NCBI GenBank assembly: GCA_905221615.1
Contig: CAJNDT010003435.1
Location: forward strand, 205,937-269,936
Reading direction: 5' to 3'
DNA length: 64,000 bases
DNA from: Symbiodinium sp. CCMP2592
Lineage: Eukaryota > Sar > Dinophyceae > Suessiales > Symbiodiniaceae
Position 1 is the first letter of the stretch. Each line of letters begins with the position of its first letter. Below the pieces are notes generated by a model. It was not told the DNA's origin, did not search any database, and saw nothing but the letters and a program-made list of their open reading frames with translations. Shown here piece after piece: positions 7,775 through 59,636 of this stretch. The position numbers were made by a program, and so were the translations under genes.

Positions 7775-7861
7775 CTCTTTCGTGCCTGCGGCGAGGCCGC
7801 TCCCAGCTCGTCCCGCCGGTCGCTGCTCGCCGGGGCTTTGGCAGTCGGGCCCTCAGCCAAC
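7775..7861 (+). CDS. Deg exon: twin-Arg lumen-targeting leader
   Basis: After CCGCAG the frame encodes a Ser-rich stretch, then [17 protein letters not shown]: an Arg pair followed by a short hydrophobic Ala/Leu segment, typical of Tat-dependent thylakoid-lumen leaders. The exon could end at 7843 (GT), 7855 (GC) or 7861 (GA); all keep phase 0 with the next exon. Linkage to the protease rests on order and phase. Confidence 0.55.
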
Positions 7862-10800
7862 GAATTACATGTGTATGCACATATATATATATATGTATGT
7901 TTGTATGTATGCACGCATGCACGCACACATGCATGCATGCATGCGTGTATGCACGAATGTATGCATTTCAAATACACACACACACACACACACACGCGCG
8001 CGCAAGTATGTTTGTATGTTCGTATGTTTGTATGTATGTACGTTCGCATGTGGCACATGGCCGCCACACCATGGAGTTGTTCTCTTGTTATGAAGGTCGC
8101 TGCGCCCGAGCGGGCCAATGCTCTCACCACCGAGGATGCGCAGCGATAAATGGGTTCCGAAAGCCTTCCGAAGTTTTTGGTGGCGTTATACTGCGATGTA
8201 TCCCGAAACTCTTGTCGGCCCATGTGAACGTATCCGTTTAGTGACTACTGCGGTATGGCCCCCTGCCCAAGGCTGCGCGAAAAGGTTGTGAGAAGCTGTC
8301 GGGATCTACTGGGTGTCCCCGCTCTAGGTTGCGCCTGATATCGTCACTTTGTTTAGGATCCAGGGTTTAGAGTCTAGGGATTCCAAATTCCAAAGCTGAC
8401 GATGGCAATTCTGGCGAGTATGGTGATAGTGAAAATCATGAAGCTGACATTGAAGTTGATACTTGCAAGGTTGAACCTGGGGACGATGATGGTGACGGTG
8501 ATGGTGATGATGATGAAGAAGATCGTGAGAATGATGCGGATGATGAGGATAAGGACGAGGACGAGGATGATGAGAGCGAAGGATGGTAGTGATCGTGATC
8601 TTATTGGCCACAATGAAGGAGACATAGAGCAATGTGACTGATGGTGCTGCATCATGTAATGTCCGGTTCTCCACCAGGCATGTGTGAGTCTCCGAAAATA
8701 GGGGACCTTAATATGGCACCCTAATAGTACGATGCTTATTAGAAGGACCCCAAAATAAAGGTACCCCTATTTTCGAAAACTCCCATGTGATGGCACGGAT
8801 GTCAACCGCCAAACTGGTGAGTCCCCATCACGGCCCGCAGCCCCCATTGCAGGAGCTGCGTGCGGCCAACCTCTTCCTGACGGCCTCACCGAGTGTTCCA
8901 TGGCTGAAAGAAGGATTGTGGTGTAGGGGCTATTACAAGGATTTAGTATAGGGGCCTTAATAGTTAGAATAGGGTTTGGGACCCATACATTCTACTATAA
9001 TCTGTGCACAGACTGGAGTTTGTGTCCAGGAATTCATGCAGGTTCAACCTTCCAGCAGGAAGAACCTACTGACTGGCTTGCTTTCGCAGATGAATGGTTA
9101 GATTGTATTCCGATGCCCGGCTGCTCTGCCATCCTGTGCCGAGGTTCTCAGCGTTTCAGAAGGCAAGAAGAATGCCGGAAACTCGGGAGGTTTGACCCTA
9201 GCCCTGACCGCGAAACTCAGAGAAGCTTCTCAGCTGCATAGCCCCGCCTTCAAATTGGAGGTTCCCAGAGGGAGTCAATTTATCTTCCTTTGGGGTTGGA
9301 GGGTGTGTAAGGGGGAAGAAATTAGAGGACATGAGGCTTCAATCTTGTTCTATAGGGAAGAGGCAAAGAGAGTCCGAACGTGCAGGATTGCTGACCCGCC
9401 AAGAGGGAACGTGTAGTTTTGCTTGGACCGTCGCGAAACAGATTTGGGAGTTTCCGAAAATTAGGGGTACTTTTTTGGGGTCCTTATAATAAGGATCCTA
9501 CTATTTAGGGTACTAGATTAAGGTCCCCCTATTTTCGGAAACTCCCATTTGTATAGTGTCTTTCGCATGCATCGGGCTCCTCCACAATCCAAGACCCAAG
9601 CTCTCTAATGCACCCTAACCCAAAGATCCCTAAACCCTCGAACCCCCAAGCCTGCCACAATCGCAATCCTTCATCCTAAATGGAGATCCCCCCCAAAGTC
9701 ATCAGACTGATCTTGGCTGCTGGGATAGCAAGTTTTGACAGGTACATGTTTTCAAGCCTCACTAGTTGCAGAGGCCTTGTCAGTCCCTGTCACGCCTGAC
9801 ATTACTCACGACATCTCGTTGAGAAGAAAAGTGTATGGACTGCTAAATGTATGAGAATAGGGCACCAGGGATCCCTGTCCGCTGATAGTACCCCGTGCTG
9901 AACTCGAAATCAGTGTAGCACGTGGTCTGCAACCTCGCTGCACTATCACGGTCACCACAAGACATGCCGGCCGTGCAACTCGTAACATCCGGGATCCGTG
10001 GTTTTCTCGTAGGCAAGACATTCACTACGAAATTATTAGTACTCTGTTTCTATGTGCCAGCATTTTTATTGTTGTCATTTTTGTTGGCATTAACTGTTGT
10101 CACTACAACCGCTAGCATTAGTATTCATATCAGTCTTGTTCCTCTTCTTGCTTTGCTATAATTGTGTTTGCCGCTATTATTATTGTATTGTTCTTCGTCT
10201 TCTTCTTCATCACTTGTCATCATAGTCGTAGTGTTCGTGTTTTTGCTTCCTAGTGTTCGTCTTATTCCCTGGAACCCTTAAAGGAGCCCTTATGGACCCC
10301 TTACAGGAACCCTTAAAGGAGCCCAAGATCAAAGCTCGAGTCGTTACCTGAGGCGCCGGGTCCCACTGGCACCGGCTTTGTCTGGGATGCCTCGCATGCC
10401 TGCACCTCATCAGGGCGTAAGAGGGGCTTGGGGTCTATAGGCTTTTGAGCTAGTGGGCTTAGGGTTTATGAGGCAAGGCCGAGCTGTGGGGTACCAGGAA
10501 AATGCCAGTTTGCCACAGTAACCTCGCACCAAGCTTGAGACCTCTCCACCCCTTCGGCCTGCTGGGGTGCATCCGAGCATCCTAGTTTTGTTTGAAACGG
10601 GTGGCCGAAAGTACGCAGCGGACGCTGAGCCGTGAACCCTGGCACATGTGAGAGGTTGTGACGAACTTCCACGTGGTGAAGGAGTTGAAGAGCCCCCACG
10701 TCACATTCCTCCGCAAGGCCTGAGTGGCCGCGGTGGTGACAAAGTTTATCCACTTCAGGGCTGTTGTGCCATGCTATGGTGTGAGCTTTGTTGGTGTGGT

Positions 10801-12361
10801 TGAGTCTTTGTTACTATTGCCATTGCTTGCCCCAAGATAGATTTCAAGCATCGACTCGGATCACAATTACAAGGACCCTTGACCCCAAACCCTATATAAT
10901 CACTAACCCTAAACCCTAGACCCTAAACCCTAAACCCTAAACACTAAACCCTAAACCCTAGACGCTAAACCCTAAATCCCTGAAACCGACTCCGGGCGTC
11001 GCAGTGCTGTGGCTGCCAGGACGAGTCCGGCAGCGAAGATCACATCACCGTCGGTGCCGGACCTCCCTTTATTTTGGGGCTTCCTTATTTTAACTATCGT
11101 ATAATAGCCCCAAAATCCTGTTAGAACACAGGAGCGGGGCCTAGTTCTTTATAATATAGGGGCCTACTTCTTTATAATATGGGGGCCTACTTCTTTAGAA
11201 TATAGGGGCCTAATTCTTTATAATATAGGGGCCTAATTCTTTATCATATACCTATAGTCTCCATTGTAGTTCCTCTTTTTGGTTAACCCAAATCTCTATT
11301 ATCGGTTCCTAACCATGAAAAACTCGTTAACCAAAGAAGGGAACTACAATGGAGACTATATGTAGGGGCCTAATTCATTACCGATACTATTTTGGGGCTT
11401 CCTTATTTTAACTATCGTATATAATGCCCCCAACATATTGTTCTAATTATTAAGGCCTCTACATCATGTGGGTTTAGGGGGTGCCTCCCTTGGTTACGAG
11501 AATCGCACCGTTGGACCAGAAGGGAATGTTATACTAAGTGCGCCATGGTATATGTCCGCTACATATTGGGATTGTAGGCGTCATAGGGCGACCATTTCGG
11601 GCCTCCATCAAAGCAAATGCTTTCCTGCCCCAACCCCATCTCGGTTTTCGGAATTTAACGCCGCCCACACTAGAGTCTTCAGATTTGCTATCTTCGCCCT
11701 GACGTGTCGGGTCAGAAGGTAGATTTAATCTTTTTCATGAATATTTGGGAGTCCTTCGTGTTGTTACATTTTGTTTCAGCGTTTAGACCTTAAAAGCTTT
11801 AGGGCTGAGGGTTTCAATTTCTCAGTCCCATGATGTCCCATGTCTTGATGCTCCGCCGCTTTACGCAGATGAGCCAACACATGACGTTGTTGGGTGTTCC
11901 TAGCAGTCTGTGGGTTTTGCAGTCATACGGAGCCAGGCATTCTGACCGGTAGCGTGCAAAGAAGCGTTTGTGTAGAGCATCCGGAAGTTTAGACACATCT
12001 GAAGGCATGTTCAAGTTAGGACCATTTAGGAGGCAGGATGCCTGTCTTGTCGAAACATCTTTTGCTTGCGCTATGTTGCGCCGCTGCATTCGAGACTCGG
12101 CAAATGTCGTATTTGCTGGGTGGAGTCTCGCGCACCGGCTCTCGCCTGATGCTTTCAAGTCTAATGTTGGATTGATATTAATAAACCCCTCCCCCCCCCC
12201 CCTGAGGTTGTTTTGCGCGGGCGTCTCTTGGGGCAGGGTCTGGGGTCCGGGTCGCAATAGTAAACCTCTGGCCTGCTCCGGGCCTAGTATACTAGTAGTA
12301 ATAGTAGTAGTAATAATAGTAGTCATAGTTGTAATAGTAGTAATAGTAGTACTAGTACTAA

Positions 12362-12438
<77 letters not shown>

Positions 12439-15400
12439 ATAGTAGTAATAGTAGTAATTAATAGTAGTAATTAATAGTAGTAATTAATAGTAGTAATTAA
12501 TAGTAGTAATTAATAGTAGTAATTAGTAGTAATAGTAGTAATAGTAGTAATAGTAGTAATAGTAGTAGTACGTGAAGTCTCAACCTGTGGCATTCGCGGC
12601 ACTCTGGCTTCTGTGCCCTCGCCCCTTCTGCTTTCCTTCTGAACTCCCTCTGACGCCACTGGACTGAAGCAAGGAGTCTGCCCGGCTCAAGTTTAGCTGC
12701 TGCAGTTCCTGGAATCCGGAGTCCCTGGCTTCTTGCCAAAGTTGCCAGAAGAAGGGCTGCAAAGGGTTACCCTTGCCGGGTTTGTGAAATGGCTCCGTTT
12801 ATTTAGAACTGGAATAAGGAACCGACCTCAAGTTTAGCTGCTGCAGTTCCTGGAATCCGGAGTCCCTGGCTTCTTGCCAAAGCCTGCAGCTTTCGAATAC
12901 CAAAGCCTCTGGCTTCTTGTCCAAAGCCACTGGCTTCATAGCTTTCCCAACAGCAAGGCTTCCCATCGGGAGCCCCTCCCCCGGATGAGTTTATTATTGC
13001 CACCCCGTTTATAATTGCCAGAAGAAGGGCTGCAAAGGGTTACCCTTGCCGGGTTTGTGAAATGGCTCCGTTTATATAGAATTGGAATAAGGAACCGACC
13101 TCAAGTTTAGCTGCTGCAGTTCCTGGAATCCGGAGTCCCTGGCTTCTTGCCAAAGCCTGCAGCTTTCGAATACCAAAGCCTCTGGCTTCTTGTCCAAAGC
13201 CACTGGCTTCATAGCTTTCCCAAAAGCAAGGCTTCCCATGGGGAGCCCCTCCCCCGGAGGAGTTTATTATTGCCACCCCGTTTATAATTGCCAGAAGAAG
13301 GGCTGCAAAGGGTTACCCTTGCCGGGTTTGTGAAATGGCTCCGTTTATATAGAATTGGAATAAGGAACCGACCTCAAGTTTAGCGGCTGCAGTTCCTGGA
13401 ATCCGGAGTCCCTGGCTTCTTGCCAAAGCCTGCAGCTTTCGAATACCAAAGCCTCTGGCTTCTTGTCCAAAGCCACTGGCTTCATAGCTTTCCCAAAAGC
13501 AAGGCTTCCCATCGGGAGCCCCTCCCCCGGATGAGTTCATTATTGCCACCCCGTTTATAATTGCCAGAAGAAGGGCTGCAAAGGGTTACCCTTGCCGGCT
13601 TTGTGAAATGGCTCCGTTTATATAGAATTGGAATAGGGAACCGGTGTCCCTGCGAAGCTGCAGCGGTATGTGCTGAACAGACTGCGTCTGGAGCTGGGTC
13701 TGCCACCTAAGGCAGCCTGAGTTCTTCTGTTTCACAGCTCTCTGGATGCCATTGGATCTGCCGAGGGGTGGAGTGAAACAGTCTGGAACTGCACTCTGCG
13801 AGCTAGTACTTCAGTGTCGTCTGTGCCGATCTGCATTCTGCTGGCTGGTTTTCCTCTGAGTTTGAGCATTTGCCAATTGATTAATTACTCAACCTGGATC
13901 CTAATTTTTTGGTGATTTGGGGCCCTGAATATTTTAATTGTCACCCCTTTTATAAATGTAACCTCCCATCTATGATAAGTTGTTTGGGGCATTTGGGCTC
14001 CGCCCTTTAAACTCCTCTTCCGTCCGGAAATTCTGGCCCAGGAAATATTTTAATTATCACCCGGTTTAATAAATTCAATTCAACATTACCCAGGAGCAGA
14101 CTCAAGCAAGTGAGGGCCTCGAAACGCTGGTCTGGGATGATGCCTGCCTTTTGAATGTGGCTTGGCCGCAGACAAATATGTTGAACCCTAGATTTGCTGG
14201 TGCGACTTGCGCCGACTAGCATTGTGCCGCAAACGGTCCAATGTCAGCAATGGTCTTCTGGTTTGTTTTGTTTTAGTGTGAAACTTCAGACATTCTGCAA
14301 CCCTCCAGTCGAACCGTTCTCTCACGGACAACTTGTTCGATCATGACACGTGGGCTCAGGCATCGTGCGAGGAAGGCGCCTTGGCGTTGCGAGGCTTTTT
14401 ATGTTGCTGATTTAGGGTGTAGGTTATGGGGTAATGGATTATCGAAGCACCACAGTGTTACCTGCAGCCTGTTGCAAGTCTGTGCGGACATGGTCCATGT
14501 TGCTGCGTTTAGTAAGCTGCCCACGAACGAGTCATGTCTGGCACAGACCTATGCACCCTGAGCCCTAAAAACCATGACCCAGAAACCTTTGCGGTGCCCT
14601 GTGGAGCTTAGCGCAGAACAAGAGCTTGACATGCCATTGGACCCTAAACACTAGCCTGGTACAGGCCCTTCTTGTACGTCCCCCGCTGACTGCTCTTTTC
14701 GGTGGCCGCCCGACACCTTGATCATACGTACGCAGGCACGCATGCATGCATGCCTGTTTGTTGATCAAGGTGCCTCTTGGCGCCAGCTCCGAGCAAAGGC
14801 GTTCGCCGTGCGAAGGCAAGGAGGGTTGAGGAGGGCACGAGAACTCTTGAAGGGTTTTCCAGGAAACGACAGGTTCAGGAAAGCACCAAGTCTGTTTTGT
14901 GGCTTTCTCCAGGTTTGCAGGAAGATGCCAGAAGAGAATGCAACATGATTTGTGTACCGCGACCTGCGTAGAACCATGCACAAGCCGCATCGGAAATGCT
15001 CGTCTGTGAGGGGAACCCATAAACCCCAAGCCCCTAATTTCCTTAAGCCCTAAACGAACCCCCACACAAGAAACCCTAAAGTCTGCAGCCATGGGAGATG
15101 ACGATCTCCCAGTTGTGGGAAAGGCTCGGGCTCGGGGCAGGTCAAAACTTTCAGAACGGGCATGGCATATTTGCAGGGATCCATAGGGTTGTGTAGGGTT
15201 TAGGGTCTAGGTTAATTAGATAATTAGTGAATATATCTGTTAGTTAGCTAGTCAGTCAGTTAGTTGTTAGTTAGTTACTTAGTTAGTCAATTATTCAGTT
15301 AGTTAGTTTACATATATACACATACATATTGTATAGTTTTCATGTTTGGTGAGAAGCCCGATATATGCTCTGGTCGGGAGCCCAGTTACGCTCAGCAGAA

Positions 15401-17444: not shown

Positions 17445-17482
<38 letters not shown>

Positions 17483-24923: not shown

Positions 24924-24999
<76 letters not shown>

Positions 25000-29030: not shown

Positions 29031-29113
<83 letters not shown>

Positions 29114-41385: not shown

Positions 41386-41416
<31 letters not shown>

Positions 41417-42612
41417 GTGGTTGATCGGAGGTCCTAGAAGATGCAGGATGTAGGGTTCGAAGAGCAGTAGAAGCGTATGCACAGAGTGCCCTGCCAGGAT
41501 CTGTGGTTGGTGTCAACACGGCCATCCTGTCAACAAGCGGTCCGATTCCCTGCTTGTCGATCGTATTGTGGAGCTTTAGCACATCATTCGTCAAATTTTC
41601 TACACACCACATGATGCCCATGCTGCGTATCGCACACCAAAGTGCGCTGTTGCACATCGTGCTACGTCCTACGTCGTCGAATCTTCCTCGGATCCACCTC
41701 AGGAGTCAGGAGTGCAGTGCAGACTCCAAGAAGTGATCTCTTGGTAAACTTACCTTTGGTTAGTAGGGAATGGAGGAATGGGGTACAATTATAAGTACTA
41801 TCACTACCAATCTTCCATTCCCTACTAACCCAAGGTAAGTAAAATTAAGTAAAGCTGTGGCCTCCCCCCCTCCCTCCCTAAGCATTATTCTTCTTATTAT
41901 TATTATGTATATATATATATATAGTATATTGTGTATATTATTATTATGGTTATTGTTATTATGATTATTAATATTATATATACACATAGTTAGGTATACC
42001 CTTCTCCCCACAAAAGTCGAGAGATCGACTCCGAGACCCTCATAGCCCCGAAGGTCAGGCAGGCTTGAGGAGAAGCTGAGCCCTAAACTGCAACCCTAAA
42101 CCATAAACTGCAACCCTAAAACATAAATTGCAAACCCTACACGAGAAACTGCAAGTCCGAAACCCTAAACCCCAAATTCAAAAAACCGCCGAGGCACCTT
42201 TTCGGGAGTGGGTTTCGCCCTGCCCATCGACACAGTGCAGAAGAATGTGGAGTCCATGATTGAGGAAGGCAAGGCTCACCTAACGTTCCTGTAAAGGGAT
42301 ACTATAAGGGTACCATAAGGGTTTAGGGTTTCGGGACCTTAACAATTAGAATAGGGTTTTGGGGGGCTCCTTCAATATTTATAACTATAGTTGTAGTTAT
42401 AGTATATTATACCCCCAAACCCTAGTCTAATCATCAAGGTTCCTTATTTATGGTTAGAATTTAATGGTCAGAATATAATAGGATATACCCCAAACTCTAT
42501 TCTACTTGACCCCTACTATCACTATTCCAATCAACAGTCTTCTTATTTTTGCTAGTTTTGTTTGCTGCTACTACTACTACTGCTACTACTACTACTACTA
42601 CTACTACTACTG

Positions 42613-42646
<34 letters not shown>

Positions 42647-42647
42647 G

Positions 42648-42700
<53 letters not shown>

Positions 42701-45700
42701 GACTACTACTAGTACTATTTAGCCGTGATAAAGGAACAGATAGCATAGCTGCATGTAATGCGGTCACCTATAGTCTATAATTGTACGGTAGAGCATTTTA
42801 ATATACTGCCTTCAGTCATCCTGGCACAAAGAAAGTCACAGAAACCTACGCAAGGAACCAGATGAACTGACTCTCTCTTCCACGTTGCCGGGCTCCAGTA
42901 TCTCAGCCTGAAAGTCCTTGACAGCCCAAGTATTCGGTAAAGCCCTTATAGTAGAAGCCAGAAAGTTGGAACATCATTATTCTCATGCCCCAAAGGTAAA
43001 GTATAAGATATCCTAGCACTAATCCTCCCAAAACCATGTTCCAACTTTCTGGGGTCCACTGTACGCGTACCATGGAGCATTGGAAATCTATATCAATCCT
43101 CTTCCACGACCCCTCTAAGAAATGGAGGCTATGTGACCCGGCCCAGCATCGGCGTGGAGCTTGCACCGGACGAGGCAAGAAGCGGATCTCAAGAGTCCAG
43201 CGTTGCAAGGGTACCAAACGGGATTTTTTAGGGTACAACACGCGCCCTTGTCTGGGGTAACCTAAGAGTCGTGGCATTGTAGCCTGAAGTCATGGTATCT
43301 AAGGCTATATTAAATATGCCGTCCTTTGCCCTAGTGCAAAGAGCTTTTGCTCTTTCGGAAGCCTAGTCAAAATAGCAACGCCGCTGTGGCGCGAACTGTC
43401 GGTGCCGGTGACTACAAAAGCAGTCCTACGGTTGATGATAGAAATCCTGCACTACCCAATATAAGGAATGTACCATAATTCCCAGAGTTTAGGGTCCTTG
43501 AGGTAATGCAGGATTTATATCATCAACCGTATGTGCTCTCCTGTTGGATCTTCAGCTTCGAGAACTTCTAGATTCAACGCCTTAAACCCTAAAGCCAGTA
43601 GGACCCACACTCGAAACCTAAACCTTAAACCCCAAACCCTCAAACCCTTAAACCCCCAATCCCCTAAACCCCAAACCCCTAAACCCCCAAACCCCTAAAC
43701 CCCCAACCCCTAAACCCAAACCCCTAAGCCCCAAACCCTTTTAAACAACCCTGAAAGCCTCAGAAAGCCCTGAGGTCTCCGAGTCGCTTGGAGTTCCAGG
43801 CGCCATGGTCATGAAGGCGCAGCGGCGGGCTTCCCCAAGAAGCGCGAGACTTCAAAAAAGAGTCCTCCTGATACATCCCTTAAAAACAGAAGGCACCTGT
43901 CAAAGGAACCCTTAGAAAGACCTAAGAGTTGTGGCATTGTAGCTTCAAGTCATGATATTTAAGACCCCTTTCAAAGGAACCCTTTAAAACCAGCCCTTGC
44001 AAGGAGCCCTTAAACGCCCTACCTACGAGCGCCAAGACTTCCGAAGTGCAAGCTGGGTGTGTAGAAACCCTGAGCTTCACAAGCCCAAGACCTTTTGGAG
44101 CCCTCCTTAATTCTTAGAAGAGGGTTTTGGGGCCCACTATACTCTGATTATAATAAGGAACCCCCAAAAGAGTATACTCAATTTGGGAGCTTCGGAAGAT
44201 AGGGGGCCCTAACATCGCACCCCAAATACTAGGACCCCCCAAAATCGGAAACTCCCACATCCCAGGCAAGCCCGATGGCCCCAAAGTAGTTCCTTTCGGG
44301 GGTTCATATTTAGAGTTGTATAATGTAACCCCAAAAAGGAACTACTTTGGGGCCTTAGGGCAAGCCCTGACTGAAACTTTTTGGTCACGATAGACTGGAG
44401 CCTCCAGGAGATTTAGCTTTAAGGTAGCCTCGCAGCTGCCCCACAATCATCAAAGCCACAGCTGACGAGTTTGATCTGGCAGTCGGGTCAGGGTTGAGGG
44501 TTCAGAGTTCGCGGATGAGTGGCTGATGGACGGCGGTTTAGCTCAACCTACTTGGACTTGAGCTTTTGTCATAGGATCTTCTTATTATTATACAGCACAA
44601 CCTGAAGTTGTAAAGGCCCACACAAGAAAGCGTGGCATGGTAAGTTTAGGCATTAGCCAAGCGAGTTCTTCCTCGCCTGCAAGAGATCTATGGCATCGAC
44701 TAGGATCGCATAATCATAAACAAGAAAAGTTAAGGTATATAGCTGAAAACAGGAATTACCAATGAGGGCATGAGGGGATCAGCATAGTTCAGAAGCCGCA
44801 TCCTGTCTGTTGCGCTTGAATTGCTGCTAAGCTGCGCTGCTGTCAGGTTGTGCCTGGAGGGCCGGCACAGCGAGCCGGAATGAGGCAATTCGTGCTGCTC
44901 CCCAAAGACTCCAATGTCCCTTAATTAAGGAATATTCCTTAAACCATATAGATCCTACCATTATTTGAGGAGTATTATTCCTTGCTTAAGGGATAGTGGA
45001 GTCTTTGGGTCCTATAATTCTGATGGAGCTGAGGGTTGCTTATGTTGCAGTCTATGAAGAGTTACGGTACGATGATTCTCTATTCCCTCAAGGGTAGGGA
45101 GGTTTCAGAGGGGATCTTCGGGCTGTTTTAATCCGAGTAAGAGGCTTCTGGTAGTTCGGTTCATAACCCTAAACCCTAAACCCTAAACCCTATTCTTGTC
45201 TCTACTGCCAGGGCTTTAGGGCTTTAGGCTTGTATGATTTGTACGTCCGGCCACCGGGTTGCAGCGTTTTGATTTAGGATCTCATAGGGAGACCCTTTTT
45301 TTTTGGGGGGGGGGGGGTAGGGGACACACTTCCTTAAATTAGCTTTATTAAGTCCTTATTATAAGTTTTACGGCCCCCCGTATCCCCCTCCCCCTACCTG
45401 TGATGATCTCTAGGCTTTCACAGGACAGGATGAGTGATTGCCGAGCGGCGACATGATAGTCCGAATGCAGACCAGGTTTCGCAGATCCTCCGACAGCTTC
45501 AATAGGTCGATGCCCGGAAGAAGGCAGTATCTCCTTTGAAAGGGTTTCTGATTATCATAGTTACGTTCTTGAGCCCTAAACTAAACCCTGAACCCTAAAT
45601 CGTTTTTATACATTATAGAGAGAGGAGTGGAGAAAGCTGACATGCCAGGGCTCTTCGCAGCGGTCAGCTCGGCGACGTCACGCCCCGAGCAGGACATCCA

Positions 45701-47810
45701 CAGAACAGGACTTCTGAACAATACTTTGGGAATATCGTTATAGGAAAAATACAGTTTCGTAATAACAAGAGTATACAATCCTACTGAATGAATGTTTTTA
45801 TCGCTTTCAATAATTCGCAAGCGCTTGGCGACCATTTGTCTTGGTCGTGGGTAGACTGCGGAGTAGGAGGAGCAATACGGGCTTGCACTGCGAAGAGCCG
45901 CTGAAGTCTGCAGCGTACGAATCGGGGGTGTAGCTGGATGCAGCTCTCCGGGGGCATCATCCGGCCTAGTGTCGGTAATGAGGGGCAATGGTTTCGGGTA
46001 GTTCGACATGTTCGCCAAGAGCACTCAGTCATCCCAAGTTCATATGTGCAGCACAGGCTCACTGACGAAAAGCCCTCCTTGACGTAACTTCGATAAGGTA
46101 CCCGAAACTACTTGAAGGTTCATGGGCAGTCACAAGCATGTTTATGGTTAGTTATTCTGCTAGGTGCCAAGTGCACTGAGATGTACGTTTATCGTATTCA
46201 TAGCCATGCCGCCATACTTAATAAGTCCCCCGACCCGTTAAGTAGGGCCTCTTTGGTGGCAACTTAAGGTAAAGTTCCTTAAGCCCGCTTTGAGGTCATC
46301 GTGAAGATGGGCTCCCGACCAATTGCCAGCTCCAGTGACGTCTTCCGCTACTTGGATCAGCGGCCCGGCGCAAGCAGTCAATTCGACAGAACAAGCACAC
46401 CAAAGGTTCCTGGAAATGGATCTCTAAGGGTTCTTATTAGAAGGGTTTAGGGTGCATGGGGTCGCGTGGGTAGATGCTCCTGCAAAAGAGATACACTTCT
46501 TTACAAGCGGATGTGAGCCCAAAGCGGGACCGACACCGTGTCGAACTACTGACATGATCAGTTCGCATGGCAAGAATGATCAGCGCACCAGTGGCCAAAC
46601 AGAGCAAGCCGAACTCCTTGTACTCCACGCTTAGAACCTGAAATCTGCTTGAAGTAGATACTGCTTCCTTCTTATGACGAGTTCAATGCTCCTACATAAA
46701 CTATACATCCCAAAACCTGTCTTTCAGTCAAGGGATAACTTGGGATCTCCCAGGAAACAGGAACAAAGCCCAAGCCCCTGCCAAAAACCGTTAACAAACC
46801 TAGAACAAGAACGACTAAGCTTCTTCAGCCCTAAACCCTAAAGCGCAAAGCCTTACCCTATAAGGTCTGAACCCTAAACCCTATAAGCCCTGCCAGGAAC
46901 GCCTACAAAGCCGATACAACCTTTGAAACTTCGCTCAAGTCTGAGGCGGCAACCTGGAGAGCTTGTCGTGATGCACCGGCCTGAGGCATAAGGACTTCGA
47001 AAGTTAGGGTTTGGGCGGGTTTAGGGTTTAGGGACTAGGCACCAGTGGCTAGGATTTACGGTTTTCCTATAGACAGCTAAATAATGGAAAGACCGTAGTA
47101 TAGTAATATAGGAGGTCGAGTTTAGGGTTTCCTCACTAGCAGAGAAGGCTAACTAATTACCAATATTGTTCCTTCGAGTTCCTTATTATATTTATACTAT
47201 AGAGGAGCCCAAAACCCAATTGTTGACGCCCCAACATTAGCGTCGAGTCGTAGAACTTCTGGGTCATCAGCCAAACACCTTAAAGCTTAAATCCCATCCC
47301 AACCCCAAGCCCTAAGCCCGCAAATCCATACCCCAAGACAACCCCCCTCCGCCCCTGCAAGCGCAGAAGGTCGGTGCAGCGAGCTTCCTCGGACTTAACG
47401 AGTGACGATCCAGACATCGCTGGCGACTGAGCTCGGAGGGAACCCTCAAACGTTTAAAGGGTTTTGGAGGGATTCATGGGGATGTTATGCGGATTTTATG
47501 GGGGTTTGTACGGGTTCAATAACGGTTCTGGTTAGGGTTTAGGGCAGGAGGGTATCACGGTTTCGAGGATTCGGGCATAGGGTGTAGGGATTTGAATTTT
47601 CTGCTGACCCCAAACCCATGCATGTGACCTTTGCAGCACCTCCGGTCGCTAGGGCGAAATGCCGGCTCTCCTGCCTGAGCCACCCTCCATTGATACTTGT
47701 CCCGGGCTCTGGACTGCAAGCACTGCAAAAGAGACGAAGCCGCAAGCACAGTTGAGGTGGACATTACAGTACGCCTGGGCCGATCCAATTCAAAGATGGT
47801 GGTCACTTAG
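7775..47810 (+). CDS. DEG1: Deg1/HtrA-like PDZ serine protease, multi-exon gene
   Basis: An ATP-independent trypsin-fold endopeptidase of the HtrA/Deg family. In photosynthetic eukaryotes the lumenal members degrade damaged photosystem proteins; that role is inferred here from a twin-arginine leader in the first exon. Joining the listed exons gives the family landmarks in order: [18 protein letters not shown] (His codon 10670), [13 protein letters not shown] (Asp codon 37902), [29 protein letters not shown] (Ser codon 40985), [30 protein letters not shown], then one PDZ domain ([15 protein letters not shown]) and a TAG stop at 47808. Reading phase is kept at every junction except the one crossing 10718-37842, where one small exon is still missing. 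Of the donors that can be fixed, nine are GC, three GT and two GA. The 27-kb gap holds another gene and a retroelement. The N-terminus upstream of 7775 is not known. Confidence 0.83.
7862..8050. repeat. ATGT/CATG/CA microsatellite mosaic
   Basis: Runs of ATAT, GTATGTTT, GCATGCAT, CACACA and CGCGCG. All open frames across it on both strands are low-complexity Cys/Tyr/His or Met/His products. Confidence 0.9.
8402..8640. repeat. GATGAT-rich low-complexity tract
   Basis: Imperfect GATGATGGTGACGG repeats give Met/Asp- or His-rich frames on both strands. Not considered coding. Confidence 0.7.
8685..8786. mobile_element. palindromic element, family A copy 1
   Basis: GAGTCTCCGAAAATAGGGGACC at the left end is inverted at the right as GGTACCCCTATTTTCGAAAACTC. 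It is about 100 bp with the family A core of TAGTA/ATTA. Terminal bases are partly mutated. Confidence 0.8.
8853..8909 (+). CDS. Deg exon: N-terminal ASPSV segment
   Basis: Acceptor CATTGCAG and a GA donor. It reads [19 protein letters not shown], which matches the E..v.LF...SPSVV segment just before the protease domain of Deg proteins. Phase 0 at both ends fits the exons on either side. A further small exon before 10353 is possible because this linker is short. Confidence 0.6.
9445..9547. mobile_element. palindromic element, family A copy 2
   Basis: TGGGAGTTTCCGAAAATTAG at the left and its complement CTATTTTCGGAAACTCCCA at the right. It is the best-preserved copy of family A. Confidence 0.88.
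10353..10397 (+). CDS. Deg exon: GTGFVWD strand
   Basis: Acceptor TACCTGAG, GC donor at 10398. It reads [15 protein letters not shown]. The GTGFVWD signature opens the trypsin fold of Deg proteases. It ends on a complete codon so that it joins VVTNFHVV of the next exon exactly. Confidence 0.8.
10655..10717 (+). CDS. Deg exon: catalytic His
   Basis: Acceptor GTGAGAG, GC donor at 10718. It reads [21 protein letters not shown]; the His codon at 10670-10672 is the triad histidine (TNxHV motif). This is the last Deg exon before a 27-kb gap. Confidence 0.85.
10898..10980. repeat. telomere-type CCCTAAA cluster
   Basis: Nearly regular CCCTAAA array with CCCTAGA and ACTAAA variants. Confidence 0.92.
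11135..11246. repeat. ~24-bp tandem repeat GGGGCCTANTTCTTTATAATAT
   Basis: Four to five tandem units of about 23-24 bp. Another partial unit follows the inserted palindrome at 11363, so the array predates that insertion. Confidence 0.88.
11245..11366. mobile_element. palindromic element inserted in the 24-bp array
   Basis: TATAGTCTCCATTGTAGTTCC at the left, with its inverted copy GGAACTACAATGGAGACTATA at the right. Inner TTGGTTAACC and GTTAACCAAAG are also inverted. The element splits one unit of the surrounding tandem array. Confidence 0.82.
12296..12570. repeat. AGT/TAG trinucleotide microsatellite
   Basis: Pure (TAG)n core with a higher-order TAGTAGTAATTAA period on its right side. The long Val-rich and Ile-rich frames here are repeat translations. 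Confidence 0.96.
12684..13642. repeat. 273-bp minisatellite, about three and a half units
   Basis: Identical landmarks recur every 273 bp: GGGTTACCCTTGCCGGGTTT near 12765, 13038, 13311 and 13584, and AAGTTTAGCTGCTGCAGTTC near 12829, 13101 and 13374. The first unit is truncated. Units differ by only a few substitutions, so the expansion is recent. Minus-strand frames of 66-78 codons repeat with it; they have no recognised domain. Confidence 0.93.
15380..15500. repeat. TATGTA/ACATAC microsatellite
   Basis: Low-complexity ATGTATGT/ATACACATAC sequence; frames across it are not coding. Confidence 0.85.
15589..15694. mobile_element. palindromic element, family A copy 3
   Basis: TGGGAGTTTCCGAAAATTAG at the left and TATTTTCGGAAACTCCCA at the right. 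A second partial right end follows at 15768-15803, suggesting an adjacent degraded copy. Confidence 0.87.
16770..16865. mobile_element. palindromic element, family J copy 1
   Basis: GGGGCCTTAATAATTAGAAT at the left and inverted ACTATTAAGGCCCC at the right, with an internal ATAACTATAGT. Related to the copy at 42332-42443. Confidence 0.75.
17192..17315. mobile_element. palindromic element, family B copy 1
   Basis: TACTTGCAGGATCATGGGAC and inverted CCCCATGATCCTTGAAGTA. It is the most diverged of four family B copies in the window. Confidence 0.82.
17420..17545. repeat. AT dinucleotide microsatellite
   Basis: (AT)n tracts flanking a short GTATATGTGTTTTTTGTG spacer. Confidence 0.93.
17645..17665 (+). 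CDS. six-hairpin gene exon: VYDNAVA
   Basis: Acceptor CTGTACAG, GC donor at 17666. YDNA(V/L)A is a frequent early motif of bacterial six-hairpin proteins. Phase 0 to the next exon. Confidence 0.5.
17645..29922 (+). CDS. six-hairpin (alpha/alpha-toroid) glycosidase-like gene
   Basis: Nineteen phase-compatible exons encode one protein with motifs in the order expected of the six-hairpin glycosidase-like superfamily: VYDNAVA, then [77 protein letters not shown], a DGVWLE segment, [46 protein letters not shown], and a Pro-rich C-terminus ending at TGA 29920. The family match is my reading of these motifs; substrate and location are unknown, and no signal peptide is seen because the 5' exons were not found. 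Introns begin with GC, GT or GA and are crowded with MITE-like elements. At least one exon is missing between 26220 and 27799. The whole gene lies on the same strand inside the large gap of the protease gene. Confidence 0.66.
18016..18117. mobile_element. palindromic element, family A copy 4
   Basis: TGGGAGTTTCCGAAAATTAG at the left; the right arm CCTACTTTCGGTCACTCCCA carries substitutions. It lies in the intron 17666-18230. Confidence 0.85.
18231..18285 (+). CDS. six-hairpin gene exon: RRILDAFL helix
   Basis: Acceptor AACGAAG, GC donor after one base of the next codon. It reads [18 protein letters not shown], an amphipathic helix. Confidence 0.62.
18963..19012 (+). CDS. six-hairpin gene exon: [11 protein letters not shown]
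   Basis: Acceptor TATCCCAG, GC donor at 19013. The two leading bases complete an Ala codon with the previous exon, then [16 protein letters not shown]. Confidence 0.58.
19048..19150. mobile_element. palindromic element, family A copy 5
   Basis: An intact left arm TGGGAGTTTCCGAAAATTAG; the right arm is decayed (CCTACTTTCGAAAGGGC). Intron 19013-19287. Confidence 0.78.
19288..19317 (+). CDS. six-hairpin gene micro-exon: [10 protein letters not shown]
   Basis: Acceptor ACTTGAG, GA donor. Thirty bases, phase 0 at both ends, so it could be skipped without a frameshift. Confidence 0.45.
19336..19440. mobile_element. palindromic element, family E copy 1
   Basis: GGTGGTTGTCAAAATTATGG and inverted CCATAGTTTTGACAACCACC. 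It starts 19 bases after the donor at 19318, nearly filling that intron's 5' half. Related to 39355-39470. Confidence 0.85.
19565..19637 (+). CDS. six-hairpin gene exon: [15 protein letters not shown]
   Basis: Acceptor AATTGCAG, GC donor in phase 1. It reads [20 protein letters not shown] and then GVDT plus a split Gly. Confidence 0.68.
19930..20053. mobile_element. palindromic element, family B copy 2
   Basis: TACTTGGAGGATCATGGGAC and inverted GTCCCATGATCCTTTAAGTA. The right end stops 42 bases before the next exon. Confidence 0.9.
20096..20163 (+). CDS. six-hairpin gene exon: [10 protein letters not shown]
   Basis: Acceptor GCCTGCAG, GA donor. With the previous exon it forms [20 protein letters not shown] followed by EECYL, the strongest family signature in this gene. 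Confidence 0.72.
20960..21001 (+). CDS. six-hairpin gene exon: [14 protein letters not shown]
   Basis: Acceptor TAGCCAAG, GT donor. Continues the helix started by EECYL (Y-L-x-x-A-x-D-I-L-x-x-L pattern). Confidence 0.65.
21515..21554 (+). CDS. six-hairpin gene exon: [13 protein letters not shown]
   Basis: Acceptor CCCCAG, GC donor after one base of a Ser codon that the next exon completes. Confidence 0.5.
21595..21635 (+). CDS. six-hairpin gene exon: [13 protein letters not shown]
   Basis: Acceptor TAGTGCAG; GC donor at 21636 keeps phase 0 with DAANRARVF of the next exon. Confidence 0.55.
22655..22741. repeat. dispersed ~85-bp repeat, copy 1
   Basis: TTAAGGACAATTAGTGCTG, then TTGAGGCTA and GGTTTCCAACTT, recur in the same order at 50425-50497. 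Confidence 0.75.
22803..22919. mobile_element. palindromic element with CCCCAAGGGTCCAAG ends
   Basis: Left arm CCCCAAGGGTCCAAGTACCC, right arm GGGTGCTTTGGACCCTTGGG. Single copy in the window. Confidence 0.8.
23030..23125. mobile_element. palindromic element, family G copy 1
   Basis: Contains CTCATATATTAAGGCTTTTG, GGGCCCAAAGACCATACTAT and AAGGCTTTTG. The copy at 52515-52611 is in the opposite orientation. Confidence 0.75.
23237..23296 (+). CDS. six-hairpin gene exon: [15 protein letters not shown]
   Basis: Acceptor TGATGCAG, GC donor at 23297. It reads [20 protein letters not shown], in phase with the following [10 protein letters not shown] exon. Confidence 0.62.
23859..23898 (+). CDS. six-hairpin gene exon: [13 protein letters not shown]
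   Basis: Acceptor GCCTGCAG, GC donor in phase 1; the split codon becomes Glu with the next exon. Confidence 0.58.
24930..24992. repeat. GA microsatellite
   Basis: (GA)n of about 60 bases; Arg/Glu and Ser/Leu frames on both strands are artefacts. Confidence 0.96.
25200..25309 (+). CDS. six-hairpin gene exon: [20 protein letters not shown]
   Basis: Acceptor ATTTACAG, GC donor at 25310. It is the longest exon of this gene, ending [12 protein letters not shown]; phase 0 to the next exon. Confidence 0.66.
25680..25759 (+). CDS. six-hairpin gene exon: [12 protein letters not shown]
   Basis: Acceptor GCTCCAG, GT donor in phase 2. It reads [16 protein letters not shown] and then [10 protein letters not shown] with a split Gln. 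Confidence 0.67.
26165..26220 (+). CDS. six-hairpin gene exon: [18 protein letters not shown]
   Basis: Acceptor CTTGCAG, GT donor in phase 1. It joins as [14 protein letters not shown]. The next exon in the gene was not found. Confidence 0.67.
26221..27798. other. intron with at least one unrecognised exon
   Basis: CCCTAAA-type sequence dominates 26690-26910 and 27160-27205. A short candidate (VRGFARA, after TTGCCGCAG at 26368) would fit the incoming phase but cannot be confirmed. Confidence 0.4.
27799..27857 (+). CDS. six-hairpin gene exon: [16 protein letters not shown]
   Basis: Acceptor GTTCAAG, GT donor in phase 2. It reads [20 protein letters not shown]. Confidence 0.6.
28424..28473 (+). 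CDS. six-hairpin gene exon: [16 protein letters not shown]
   Basis: Acceptor CTTTGCAG, GT donor (GTAGGA) in phase 1. The first base completes the Gly codon left by the previous exon. Confidence 0.62.
28558..28592 (+). CDS. six-hairpin gene exon: [12 protein letters not shown]
   Basis: Acceptor TTCCACAG, GC donor. The [10 protein letters not shown] block followed by [10 protein letters not shown] is the C-terminal hallmark of this protein. Confidence 0.7.
29033..29155. repeat. GA then GAGC microsatellite
   Basis: (GA)n about 75 bases, then GGGA and (GAGC)n up to the acceptor of the next exon. The polypurine run itself sits where a polypyrimidine tract would be expected. Confidence 0.95.
29159..29215 (+). 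CDS. six-hairpin gene exon: [19 protein letters not shown]
   Basis: Acceptor AGCAGAG immediately after the GAGC array; GT donor at 29216. Phase 0 at both ends. Confidence 0.7.
29222..29413. mobile_element. palindromic element, family C copy 1 (expanded)
   Basis: CAGTAGGGAATGAAGGAATG at the left and CCATTCCCTACTAACCAAAG at the right; the loop is lengthened by ACTATTACTACC-type repeats compared with the other two copies. It begins 7 bases after the donor. Confidence 0.85.
29863..29922 (+). CDS. six-hairpin gene terminal exon
   Basis: Acceptor GCAGCGGAG; reads [19 protein letters not shown] and stops with TGA at 29920-29922. Phase 0 from the previous exon. Confidence 0.62.
   Translation: MNEAANPYFPPEPPLPRRG
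29923..30943. other. spacer with degenerate telomere-type sequence
   Basis: GGGTTTAGGG-like sequence dominates 30545-30780. One exon-like piece, 30818-30845 (after TGGTCCAG, GC donor, DPSGQNAVP), has the phases needed (0 in, 1 out) for the Deg exon missing between 10717 and 37843; this is only a candidate. Confidence 0.4.
30946..33123 (+). CDS. non-LTR (LINE-type) reverse transcriptase ORF
   Basis: Copies element RNA into DNA at the target site. Palm motifs are intact: LDLEKAFDS around residue 328, [10 protein letters not shown] around residue 385 and FMDDGLLW with the Asp pair around residue 433. The preceding part (residues 40-190) is the basic, helical linker usual between endonuclease and RT; the endonuclease itself is absent. 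The thumb and C-terminal region run to residue 725 and end in a clean stop. The frame starts at a GTG at the element's left edge, with an in-frame ATG at 30955, so the real start probably lay in lost upstream sequence. There are no internal stops over 725 codons, so the insertion is recent. No RNase H motif was recognised. Confidence 0.93.
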   Translation: MSRMRVRSWRIHVDSHQKIGTDHELTEGTFVVDARREHRRHETRPRVWTGGVSVIQGMDQNIIEDLARTCTKPVRGQGYKDPEEVRKAFKMAKQSGVAAKWKAALKLRRESRQAWEKARLERASQGEWHSFRALKPRRHEGWDIAFAEVQVGDPHEIVHAHLAGVYKGPMQSPPVARWDGDVRAFTLEELRVGISQMKKGKAVGSDLTSTELIVGLMEVQGGPEHLLEWYNRILTTGDIPQKWNEPVLVLLPKIKLPQKAKQLRPIAMGSSVSKLFSRLLLNRAIRQLSPQTPAQCAGPGRQTSDYLYSIIRLFELSREWGNSLVVFKLDLEKAFDSLDRGMLLNRLEARLGRGPELTCWRNLLRETTGILQTPWGSSRLPMGRGIKQGAVESPTFFAHIAELVLSETIQNRGWRDHVPLFPDLSPEEMLFMDDGLLWNGMRSVVETRAQQLSVAFAHYGLKMNPAKCQLYVTPNVLGEHSILLDGMKIMASPQLEVMGIALRVGMSTYELVSPAMTRARAKFWEIKHILRAKGFMKNRAKVMQRVVGATALWFICCVPPDKATMTALNATQLQLMIWLLRFSKKATETWEEFRKRAFRGARSALHSAGLERWSTIWLRRYWQYAGHRVRTVLSAHPPISCDFENFRTLPWWNHQKSLPRGRAITHKGHHFARLTLLEKNMDHVAGHPWRVLAHDRVAWKGREQQWLDHMDVPWSSGRQLSLGDL
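33294..37682 (+). CDS. long retroelement-associated ORF, unknown function
   Basis: An uninterrupted 1462-codon frame (first ATG 33372) follows the RT ORF in another frame and ends 80 bases before the poly(A). No known domain was recognised. Visible structure: a short hydrophobic start, Pro/Ser/Glu-rich disordered stretches, two similar ~30-residue helical blocks near residues 363 and 561 ([12 protein letters not shown] and [12 protein letters not shown]), an Arg/Pro-rich region near 690-760, a charged coiled coil near 1010-1070 ([20 protein letters not shown]), and three ~37-residue repeats near 1175, 1259 and 1338 (pattern W..G..T.DDI...yG..wv.LF). It could be a nucleic-acid-binding, gag-like protein of the element; that is inference. 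Having such an ORF after the RT is unusual. Confidence 0.8.
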   Translation: MKGSCTPDASDRAVARLSHPPFVTWIMAFRLRDMWMATVVMVFAGGAPLGRKRSLNLTTETSEAPVMAADEDRSLENPTSHPAPVVGANYPQLPGASTSSVSSMMNASGGSRSQPEDVHDLGIQPEEQSRATVEPVSVPADDGLPAARDDQEHRCRDRRVQNPPEAPNYTIRRLNTRISDECQWIQSVTAQLHKLRAQGRGREPMWLAVLARIRSREDTEYWNWCKGRLSGLRASFEARLNPSLHTRPLSEPEVLWAIRVEHAAAQDFYMHRPHIDPVSSVPQDTVILANNVPAADPQYPYGLFHAQRVYPESGTWSPRTRSPSPAPEPEDTEDTTSLLGLWMMSAPLVFAFDRPWETEGEPAWFGDWVERLEQLMDRGLLVGSLRAAIHEELARITDDRFHRDNDLIIGEMYRRVDAYEPYEVDLVAWGMGHPSEVVVRQRVRDFLETIKDRWYQRLCPVAWRHRQNELALASRGLLDATRFPQEYYEAEHRERKTMSRSRSPYYGVTRRPRQTGSTLAVKTEQKQGEQLPQPDMPQPDMPGRAEGDGHSMFQVPPNWQGRWHELMEQLEDWFVEGREVGMAVRMVRYLARQRENEAYTTWAETPIFTMGWGNPNANGIDSETSPRDFYAWATTVEEFIWSFYRRERDQEESEAAGPVPVPPTDSEASASDSVSLMADRYSHGRRRIRDSRTPRRNERAGPACRSGHQERPQRGGARLREAATGSRESKPNRGRPAGAPRPTAHREEPASGSTGAQGSSGSAGSRDAVSLSPLAPDLTRPMTSVQATYLWRHLLFDGDRCGPDLQGNSQIPNNFLPRPMLQSISAHHEAMSRQNRLVSTCSLITVLRYMMSEIAQTLDTAEAIAQTGERAEGDTVEVEVPEEDDVNLLMQHFLMTDGRDTIEQRGIRALTRLHKELLSHTREAQLAHVRMLSVSLQSGSHGSTLSDWQEQLQALLVALGPSSAETVNMECLDRAWLDQWVNEIAAFIPGFRLASYPIQIETQTASAHGSELDKELERLLEDEESEKAWKAEREREEAEERDRLEKHELACIQELRELRADAQAFRRWEQDQMERAMQPSAGAAKRRCVMTMEASSGSADKPRVMHTLALDIPVDGEAVTISIRARMEPEPENVTTQAVSEGAMPMPGEPMNGVAAADPCNDQQTGDALMDMEFGEYQEIYARWRRGDLTLDDIRREHGTQVVELLETQHMALMEEATGCPPVEAHEVTGAGEAEDSSRSAAPSVPTSPLVMPGAERPGFGIFENVYGQWKDGHRTSADIAMCFGDRWVSLFTQWRLWGLPAIYHRLHEILDMRRDPDPLQAGPTNPPFGSVAQPLRVPFAVVKQVFERWTDGHISDDTIQTIYGDKWMRLFLTMKMAGVAACREELSEYVEWEPEALQELVEQGAGESGATGSHVHSGVFAVEGGFGNGLGETQLDENNGESAQRSSEAGPQQDHKGDPST
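37763..37778 (+). other. poly(A) tail of the retroelement
   Basis: Sixteen consecutive A residues, 81 bases after the stop codon of the 1462-codon ORF; marks the 3' end of the inserted copy. Confidence 0.85.
37843..37937 (+). CDS. Deg exon: catalytic Asp
   Basis: Acceptor ACCGGCAG, GT donor at 37938. It reads [20 protein letters not shown], then [11 protein letters not shown]; the Asp at 37902-37904 is the triad aspartate (DIAxL motif). Two leading bases need a partner from an exon not identified with certainty. Confidence 0.88.
38315..38383 (+). CDS. Deg exon: SENLKPGQE
   Basis: Acceptor AAGCCAG, GC donor. It reads [20 protein letters not shown] and GQE, matching the LRPL.LG.S..LxVGQ segment before the oxyanion region. 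Confidence 0.82.
38440..38540. repeat. AT/ATGT microsatellite
   Basis: (AT)n and (ATGT)n runs in the intron 38384-39670. Confidence 0.92.
39355..39665. mobile_element. nested MITE cluster (families E and A) at an intron 3' end
   Basis: GGGTAGCTGTCAAAATTAGG opens a family E element. Its right end motif TTTTGACAACCGCCCAT appears at 39540-39560 and 39645-39661, and TTTTTCACAACCGCCCA at 39451. A family A left end (TGGGAGTTTCCGAAAATAGG) lies inside at 39561. The whole is bracketed by CCATCTGG at 39349 and 39659, a candidate 8-bp target duplication, and the right copy runs straight into the splice acceptor GCAG of the next Deg exon. Confidence 0.72.
39671..39716 (+). CDS. Deg exon: [16 protein letters not shown]
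   Basis: Acceptor TCTGGCAG, GC donor at 39717 (phase 1). GNPFGL is invariant in Deg1-type proteases. Confidence 0.9.
39887..39972. mobile_element. palindromic element, family H copy 1
   Basis: AACCCTGAATAACCTACCTT at the left and AGGTAGGGTTTTTCAGGGTT inverted at the right. Related to 55075-55162 (ACTTATATAA core). Confidence 0.78.
39985..40130. repeat. telomere-type CCCTAAA array, ~20 units
   Basis: The longest regular interstitial array in the window, with occasional CCCCTAAA units. It lies inside the Deg intron 39717-40142, so it is not a chromosome end. Confidence 0.95.
40143..40190 (+). CDS. Deg exon: [15 protein letters not shown]
   Basis: Acceptor GGCTGAG, GC donor in phase 1. GVISG is the conserved activation-loop entry of Deg proteases. 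Confidence 0.85.
40214..40340. mobile_element. palindromic element, family B copy 3
   Basis: GGAGGATCATGGGACTTAGT and inverted ACTAAGTCCCATGATCC. It lies 24 bases into intron 40191-40946. Confidence 0.88.
40579..40704. mobile_element. palindromic element, family B copy 4
   Basis: TTACTTGGAGGATCATGGGA and inverted TCCCATGATCCTTTAAGTAA. Nearly identical to copy 2 (19930-20053). Same intron as copy 3. Confidence 0.9.
40947..41012 (+). CDS. Deg exon: catalytic Ser (GNSGGPLL)
   Basis: Acceptor AGCCCCAG, GC donor in phase 1. It reads [20 protein letters not shown]; the Ser codon at 40985-40987 is the nucleophile. Confidence 0.93.
41498..41539 (+). CDS. Deg exon: [14 protein letters not shown]
   Basis: Acceptor CCTGCCAG, GT donor in phase 1. 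It follows the Ser exon exactly as in Deg proteins (VxGxNTAI). Confidence 0.88.
41749..41839. mobile_element. palindromic element, family C copy 2
   Basis: CTTACCTTTGGTTAGTAGGG and inverted CCCTACTAACCCAAGGTAAG, with GGAATGG arms continuing inward. Confidence 0.9.
42194..42268 (+). CDS. Deg exon: [20 protein letters not shown]
   Basis: Acceptor CGCCGAG, GC donor in phase 1. The [12 protein letters not shown] block closes the protease domain. Confidence 0.9.
42332..42443. mobile_element. palindromic element, family J copy 2
   Basis: GGACCTTAACAATTAGAATA at the left, TAGTCTAATCATCAAGGTTC inverted at the right, with an inner ATAACTATAGTTGTAGTTAT. Confidence 0.75.
42568..42712. repeat. TAC/CTA trinucleotide microsatellite
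   Basis: Nearly pure (CTA)n with a few TGC and GAC interruptions. Poly-Tyr, poly-Leu and poly-Ser frames are artefacts. Confidence 0.97.
42956..43054. mobile_element. palindromic element with AGAAAGTTGGAACAT ends
   Basis: CCAGAAAGTTGGAACAT at the left and ATGTTCCAACTTTCTGGGG at the right. Ends 73 bases before the next Deg exon. Confidence 0.82.
43128..43181 (+). CDS. Deg exon: [17 protein letters not shown]
   Basis: Acceptor AAATGGAG, GC donor in phase 1. VTRPxxGxxxAPD is the link into the PDZ domain in Deg1-type proteins. Confidence 0.85.
43429..43531. mobile_element. palindromic element, family D copy 1
   Basis: CGGTTGATGATAGAAATCCT and inverted AGGATTTATATCATCAACCG. Pairs with 51966-52069. 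Confidence 0.88.
43600..43745. repeat. telomere-type CCCCTAAA cluster
   Basis: Repeated CCCCTAAACCCCCAAA units, a C-rich variant of the telomere-type repeat. Confidence 0.9.
43800..43845 (+). CDS. Deg exon: PDZ strand (AMVMKAQ..SP)
   Basis: Acceptor AGTTCCAG. With the previous exon it reads [16 protein letters not shown], the first PDZ strand and following turn. The donor fixed by phase is GA at 43846. Confidence 0.65.
44184..44258. mobile_element. palindromic element, family A copy 6 (short)
   Basis: TGGGAGCTTCGGAAGATAGG and inverted AAAATCGGAAACTCCCA with a shortened interior. Confidence 0.72.
44279..44354. mobile_element. palindromic element with CCCCAAAGTAGTTCCTTT ends
   Basis: CCCCAAAGTAGTTCCTTT at the left and AAAAAGGAACTACTTTGGGG at the right, over an A/T-rich loop of about 35 bases. 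Confidence 0.85.
44904..45011. mobile_element. palindromic element, family F copy 2
   Basis: CAAAGACTCCAATGTCCCTT and inverted AAGGGATAGTGGAGTCTTTG; the second copy of the element at 7494-7604. Confidence 0.85.
45649..45676 (+). CDS. Deg micro-exon: ALRSGQLGD
   Basis: Acceptor CATGCCAG, GT donor. Only 28 bases; it carries the SGQLGD turn of the PDZ domain and ends on Asp so that GD joins VIVKM of the next exon. Confidence 0.75.
46295..46367 (+). CDS. Deg exon: PDZ core [15 protein letters not shown]
   Basis: Acceptor GCTTTGAG, GC donor in phase 1. It reads [20 protein letters not shown] and DQRP: the second half of a Deg PDZ domain. Confidence 0.87.
47740..47810 (+). CDS. Deg terminal exon with stop
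   Basis: Acceptor GACGAAG. It reads [20 protein letters not shown] and VVT, then TAG at 47808. The V.V.V.LGR pattern is the last PDZ strand. Confidence 0.78.
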
Positions 47811-59575: not shown

Positions 59576-59636
59576 TATAACTACAATACAAAAATATTGA
59601 TGTAATCTTATTTCTCAATTAAATCAGCTGTCTTCT

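Follow-up and report, generated by a model that had tools for sequence, protein, structure and literature searches.

Genes nested in introns have been described in dinoflagellates and in humans. The passages cited here from Stephens et al. 2020 (PMC7245778) count 4,898 (8.4%) and 3,359 (6.5%) intron-nested genes in two isolates of Polarella glacialis. They state that full-length transcripts confirmed the nested structure, and that gene prediction was allowed inside introns longer than 10 kb. The example that they give is an alanine-tRNA ligase gene, with 15 nested genes over three introns. In humans, nested genes and intronic L1 elements cause intron retention, exonisation and cryptic polyadenylation, according to the passages cited from Kaer et al. 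2011 (PMC3192792). Here, we studied a window of 64 kb from Symbiodinium sp. CCMP2592 (positions 205937-269936 of contig CAJNDT010003435.1), which contains no N over its whole length. It holds two genes on the plus strand, one inside an intron of the other. We consider it highly likely that they form a conserved same-strand nested pair, with a plastid-type Deg1 protease gene as host and a complete guest gene inside its 26.8-kb intron. The pair is very probably real and old, and not an assembly mistake.

The nested genes of Polarella mean that the kind is already known. The cited passages of that study (PMC7245778) give no strand. Here, one 33-exon guest lies on the same strand in one Deg intron, and the novelty is that this arrangement is shared by several Symbiodiniaceae gene sets, which span at least two lineages. 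The Deg/guest pair was not found in the literature on dinoflagellate nested genes, in searches that did not name the pair. Among the papers listed, PMC7245778 alone was prominent on this subject. The word "nested" is absent from the main text of PMC8045281, a study with full-length transcripts of S. tridacnidorum and S. natans. As in the human cases cited (PMC3192792), a host intron holds a gene or a long interspersed nuclear element (LINE), and a forced exonisation would resemble the fused protein P0132, described below, if that protein were real. Unlike those cases, the guest and a LINE-like element share one intron. The host protein has the trypsin-like plus PDZ layout of Arabidopsis Deg1 (3qo6). 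The host gene differs in its 28 coding exons and in a 26.8-kb intron that carries another gene.

The draft peptide of the host has Arabidopsis Deg1 as its best solved-structure match (3qo6, E=1.7e-39), followed by Deg8 and Deg5. Protein searches show both Deg halves in single proteins: DEGP1 of Symbiodinium microadriaticum (P0001, 402 aa) and proteins of S. pilosum (P0002) and Effrenium (P0003). Symbiodinium is the source of the closest named proteins. Placed by tblastn and an ungapped exon scan, the Deg segments of the relatives lie in order between 5.2 and 47.8 kb on the plus strand. Spliced alignments were made with an aligner written for this analysis. It permits GT, GC and GA donors and the AG acceptor. 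P0001 is covered without a gap from residue 1 to 402 in 27 exons, and 387 of its 402 residues are identical (counted before correction of the start). On the forward strand the alignment reaches a score of 1626. The reverse complement gives 332, and five shuffled proteins give 313-334. Exchanging the two Deg stretches lowers the score to 852; removing the gap leaves it at 1626. The two halves flank the gap in the right order and without overlap, as an earlier note on this DNA had claimed.

The start of the host was corrected by hand from the sequence. An exon that opens with ATG and has a GA donor, joined to exon 1, restores MARSSSSS. The alignment of P0132 supports this start, using 5037-5056 and then 5220-5250. 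This start exon was added outside the numbering 1-27, which comes from the spliced alignment. The host accordingly reads as a Deg1-type protease gene of 402 aa and 28 coding exons, from 5049 to the stop. Pfam finds a trypsin-like domain (PF13365, E=2.6e-31) and PDZ_2 (E=4.6e-11) in P0001. Exons of the window encode the catalytic His, Asp and Ser motifs, aligned to 3qo6. Exon 5 encodes a twin-arginine motif, a candidate leader for the thylakoid lumen; the Pfam TAT_signal match of P0001 is weak (E=0.12, under the cut-off). The earlier note placed leader and His before the gap, and Asp, Ser and PDZ after it. This division stands. Its limit at 7775 does not, since the gene begins further upstream, at 5049.

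All six Deg relatives aligned (P0001, P0002, P0003, P0006, P0008 and P0011) choose one junction, 11053/37870. In the last five of them (356-417 aa), it is the sole intron longer than 5 kb. Exon 11 ends in GTC G and exon 12 opens with GT GCT. With the GT donor and the CAG acceptor, they join in frame. The earlier note missed exon 11 and set the gap from 10717 to 37843. With that exon included, the gap becomes one intron of 26,816 bp, in frame without a small extra exon. The small exon that had been suggested at 30818-30845 is not used by the alignments, and we rejected it because the flanking exons are in phase without it. The host introns of the spliced alignment (n=26) have a median of 554.5 bp, and the largest after the giant one measures 1,287 bp. 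Of the giant intron, the guest accounts for 18 kb and the LINE-like element for 6.8 kb, which leaves 1,969 bp. These remaining 2 kb suggest an intron of usual length that later expanded.

A draft peptide from the gap gave 11 protein matches, including P0121 (532 aa) and P0122 of S. natans (528 aa). P0121 aligns to the window in 33 exons, from ATG 12038 to the TAA stop, with 523 of 532 residues identical. This alignment scores 2394, while the reverse complement scores 391 and five shuffles score 369-442. Where "at least 19" plus-strand exons had been counted before, correctly but too few, the guest now reads as a complete 33-exon gene (12038-30041). It lies wholly inside the host intron, and the frames of both genes are intact. 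The source contigs of P0121 do not exceed 1,650 nt. They are too short for an 18-kb gene, so P0121 represents a spliced message, from this species or a sister species.

The introns of host and guest look alike. Those of the guest (n=32) have a median of 470 bp. Donors in the host are 17 GC, 8 GT and 1 GA of 26, and in the guest 22 GC, 7 GT and 3 GA of 32. Acceptors read AGG in 55 of the 58 pooled introns. Because the aligner permits only these donors and AG, the informative parts of these counts are the proportions and the extra acceptor G.

P0121 has no match in Pfam and NCBIfam. A sequence search of the PDB with an 11-row profile of the guest gave four matches only, with E of 0.53-0.86. The fold is the sole lead to the kin of the guest. 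It is an (alpha/alpha)6 barrel of six-hairpin-glycosidase-like form, "six-hairpin" being the name of this fold class. It is comparable to the methylmannose polysaccharide hydrolase 7qsj, GH76 mannanases and cellobiose 2-epimerases. The guest protein is probably secreted.

The genome (1,098,105,373 bp, 5,383 contigs) was searched exon by exon, scoring the best candidates from a longer list, so a diverged gene copy could be missed. A near-identical copy elsewhere should have shown up as the window itself did. Among the best candidates, P0001 has 29 matches: 10 in the window, and 19 outside it at 25-57% identity. Given these low values, we rejected two tandem broken Deg paralogues as the origin of the halves. 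The window's own stretches show 62-90% identity in this search, because the matches run on into introns. P0121 has 22 matches among the best candidates, 19 in the window and 3 weak ones elsewhere (36-55%). One near-identical locus appears in these searches for the host, and one for the guest.

Three other gene sets contain the same neighbourhood. The predicted protein P0132 (EukProt s678_g11.t3, 1107 aa) is near the window and not identical to it: 97% in the Deg C-terminal part and 93% in the guest, with a skipped exon. It begins with eight unassigned upstream pieces, the last being the start exon, followed by Deg exons 1-4 and 7-11. Guest exons 4-13 and 15-32, two small unassigned pieces, Deg exons 12-27 and three unassigned pieces complete it. 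In S. natans, P0044 (141 aa) starts within Deg exon 13 and is a shortened host model. P0122 of the same species is the complete guest; it is labelled DEGP1 and has no meaningful similarity to Deg. P0044 carries this label too, and the source contig of each protein measures 388,993 bp. The simplest reading of the common label and the equal contig size is that they belong to one locus.

A second lineage is represented by P0137 (s2585_g9.t1, 645 aa). It opens as Deg, with 68% of 105 residues identical to those of the window. The protein leaves Deg exactly at the giant intron (HVTLGA), and continues as the guest protein of this second lineage. Over 137 residues, the Deg part of P0137 shares 97.8% identity with P0006, a Deg protein whose source contigs do not exceed 1,431 nt. 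P0006 runs normally into the Asp-bearing part, without guest. Such short contigs with no guest indicate that a mature guest-free host message exists in the lineage of P0137 or in a sister strain. The host tree and the guest tree are similar in outline: P0132 is placed beside the window, S. natans stands in the same Symbiodinium clade, and P0137 is outside. Several forks are weak in these trees, and the host tree includes only partial sequences of P0044 and P0137. The arrangement recurs in several gene sets, from two lineages or more, and is inherited by the relatives (P0132, P0137 and, through linkage, S. natans). Together with the in-frame join, these gene sets support the same-strand nested gene in a giant intron that the earlier note had proposed.

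The annotation of P0132 (model t3) as a fusion suggests another explanation. Splicing could retain the guest exons in the Deg mRNA, in one isoform at least, so that the protease would gain a large extra domain. The matching phases of host exon 11 and guest exon 4 would allow it. However, P0132 lacks Deg exons 5-6 and guest exons 1-3, 14 and 33, and has unrelated ends. With these exons missing, it has the appearance of two interleaved genes merged by a gene predictor, and not of a real protein. P0121 and P0122 are complete guest proteins, and Deg proteins such as P0001 and P0005-P0009 carry both halves with no insert. The insert would also separate the catalytic His from the Asp. A single fused gene is highly improbable.

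We regard as very unlikely, too, a discontinuous Deg gene, in which two transcripts (one to 11053, the other from 37870) are joined in trans and the giant intron is never spliced in cis. Dinoflagellates have spliced-leader trans-splicing, as the cited part of PMC7245778 describes. A cis reading obliges the guest to be skipped, and the GT and AG ends would look identical in both cases. Nevertheless, the halves stand in order on one strand, which trans-splicing does not need. The two intron ends share only short complementary matches (best E 0.034), so nothing marks them for joining in trans. For the same reason, we rejected looping of the intron by complementary ends. We know of no gene-to-gene trans-splicing of this kind in dinoflagellate nuclei, and it was not searched for.

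Misassembly or rearrangement, in which a foreign segment came to lie between two half Deg genes, was the alternative left by the earlier note; it could draw on the repeat-rich region and on a retroelement that abuts the exon at 37870, but it is close to excluded by the absence of sequence gaps, the exact in-frame GT-AG ends, the lack of a further near-identical copy of either Deg half in the genome search, and an identical order in P0132 and P0137, to which S. natans adds its linkage.

Several points weigh against the nested pair. The predicted models P0132 and P0137 fuse host and guest, and read literally they describe a fused gene. The S. natans link rests on contigs of the same size and a common label, and not on coordinates, and a genome-assembly origin of P0132 and P0137 is suggested by their names alone. 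P0001 comes from a 73-kb contig, so the joined Deg protein of Symbiodinium is presumably a genome annotation. P0006, the spliced Deg protein, belongs to a lineage other than Symbiodinium. The support comes from the genome sequence and from database proteins of relatives.

Table 1. Coordinates of the host gene, its giant intron, the guest gene and the retroelement in the window.
Feature	Position	Strand	Basis or remark
Host start exon	5049-5056	+	By hand and P0132 alignment; GA donor
Host exons 1-4	5220-5250, 5748-5789, 6322-6346, 6889-6914	+	Collinear with P0001
Host exon 5, candidate twin-arginine leader	7796-7843	+	Spliced alignment
Host exons 6-9	8096-8134, 8853-8894, 9144-9173, 10353-10397	+	Collinear with P0001
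Host exon 10, catalytic His (VVTNFHV)	10655-10717	+	Spliced alignment
Host exon 11, last before giant intron	11020-11053	+	tblastn, exon scan, spliced alignment
Giant host intron 11, 26,816 bp, phase 1, GTGCCG...CGCCAG	11054-37869	+	Spliced alignments
Guest exons 1-6	12038-12091, 14094-14156, 14360-14375, 14770-14815, 15807-15843, 16115-16158	+	P0121 alignment
Guest exons 7-12	16514-16589, 17118-17162, 17645-17665, 18213-18280, 18501-18562, 18969-19012	+	P0121 alignment
Guest exons 13-18	19583-19637, 20096-20163, 20960-21005, 21595-21631, 22179-22208, 22496-22541	+	P0121 alignment
Guest exons 19-24	23237-23292, 23410-23464, 23859-23890, 24557-24602, 25247-25309, 25680-25759	+	P0121 alignment
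Guest exons 25-29	26165-26215, 26943-26979, 27799-27842, 28088-28130, 28257-28308	+	P0121 alignment
Guest exons 30-33	28558-28592, 29159-29215, 29863-29912, 30002-30038	+	Then stop TAA 30039-30041
LINE-like retroelement	30937-37778	+	Reverse transcriptase domain, DUF6822, A-tail
Host exon 12, catalytic Asp	37870-37937	+	Spliced alignment
Host exons 13-16	38315-38383, 39671-39713, 40143-40180, 40748-40772	+	Spliced alignment
Host exon 17, catalytic Ser (GNSGG)	40947-41012	+	Spliced alignment
Host exons 18-19	41498-41539, 42194-42268	+	Spliced alignment
Host exons 20-23, PDZ part begins about 43128	43128-43174, 43775-43816, 44847-44884, 45649-45676	+	Alignment, Pfam
Host exons 24-27, PDZ part	46295-46359, 46946-46972, 47370-47418, 47757-47807	+	Then stop TAG 47808-47810

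A retroelement in the gap had been reported before, and our searches agree. The open reading frame (ORF) at 30937-33123 contains a reverse transcriptase domain (RVT_1, E=2.1e-14). The ORF behind it, at 33234-37682 (1482 aa), matches DUF6822 (E=2.3e-68), which may be a retroelement domain. No endonuclease domain was matched by Pfam in these two ORFs. The element lies on the host strand and ends in an A-tail of 16 A (37763-37778), 91 bp upstream of Deg exon 12. The 9-bp sequence AAACCCTTG stands at both edges (30935-30943 and 37776-37784). It is a candidate target-site duplication, but it resembles the common AAACCCT motif.

Runs of AAACCCT that resemble telomere repeats are scattered in the introns, as at 40000-40120 and 10900-10980. 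The introns of host and guest also contain many short inverted-repeat elements (e.g. with GGATCATGGGACTTAGTAAG). These are similar to miniature inverted-repeat transposable elements or introners, and examples are found at 19930-20053, 40579-40704, 11249-11364 and 41748-41840. Inverted pairs of at least 22 nt within 600 bp number 106 in the 5-48 kb region, counting AT-repeat pairs. Intron 1 of the guest includes a tandem array at about 12690-13640, with a unit of about 273 bp, read by eye.

Outside the two genes, positions 58000-64000 are AT-rich. Their GC content is 0.34-0.41; most of the window has about 0.46-0.50 once the retroelement is set aside. This stretch is possibly a mobile element or other insert. 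A weak UvrD-type helicase match (62087-62560, E=0.008) falls in it. Nothing is above the Pfam cut-off among the ORFs of the window flanks, the AT-rich stretch included. Elsewhere in the same assembly, contig C5051, which reaches at least 2.96 Mb, shows several uninterrupted Deg-like ORFs of 491-507 aa. These ORFs have a bacterial look, and the assembly may therefore include a bacterial genome besides that of the alga.

For the nested pair, we propose the following processing. The host pre-mRNA would be transcribed right through the guest, and the spliceosome would join the exons at 11053 and 37870 in cis, past the guest. The guest would make its own mRNA, ended before the retroelement. This mRNA may be capped with the spliced leader of dinoflagellates, added at an AG that closely precedes the ATG (e.g. 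12035-12036). In the cited part of the Polarella study (PMC7245778), only a small share of full-length transcripts carries the spliced leader, which weakens the capping step. It is a tentative and rather unlikely idea that nesting has been kept since before the Symbiodinium and P0137 lineages parted because both genes are processed from one precursor. In this idea, spliced-leader trans-splicing at the 5' end of the guest would make the host intron a second message, and guest use and host splicing would act as a coupled switch.

The locus offers a clean case, with a bounded junction, for studying how splicing can bridge 27 kb between two exons when 33 competing exons of the same strand lie between them. 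It falls in a group of organisms that also trans-splices; human genes are not known to have spliced-leader trans-splicing. Public dinoflagellate annotations break at this point. P0132 and P0137 are fused, and in S. natans the host is shortened and the guest bears the host's name. Public listings thus include a glycosidase-like protein named DEGP1 and two fusions of a protease with a glycosidase-like protein. Similar errors may affect the names and domain combinations of other genes in these genomes.
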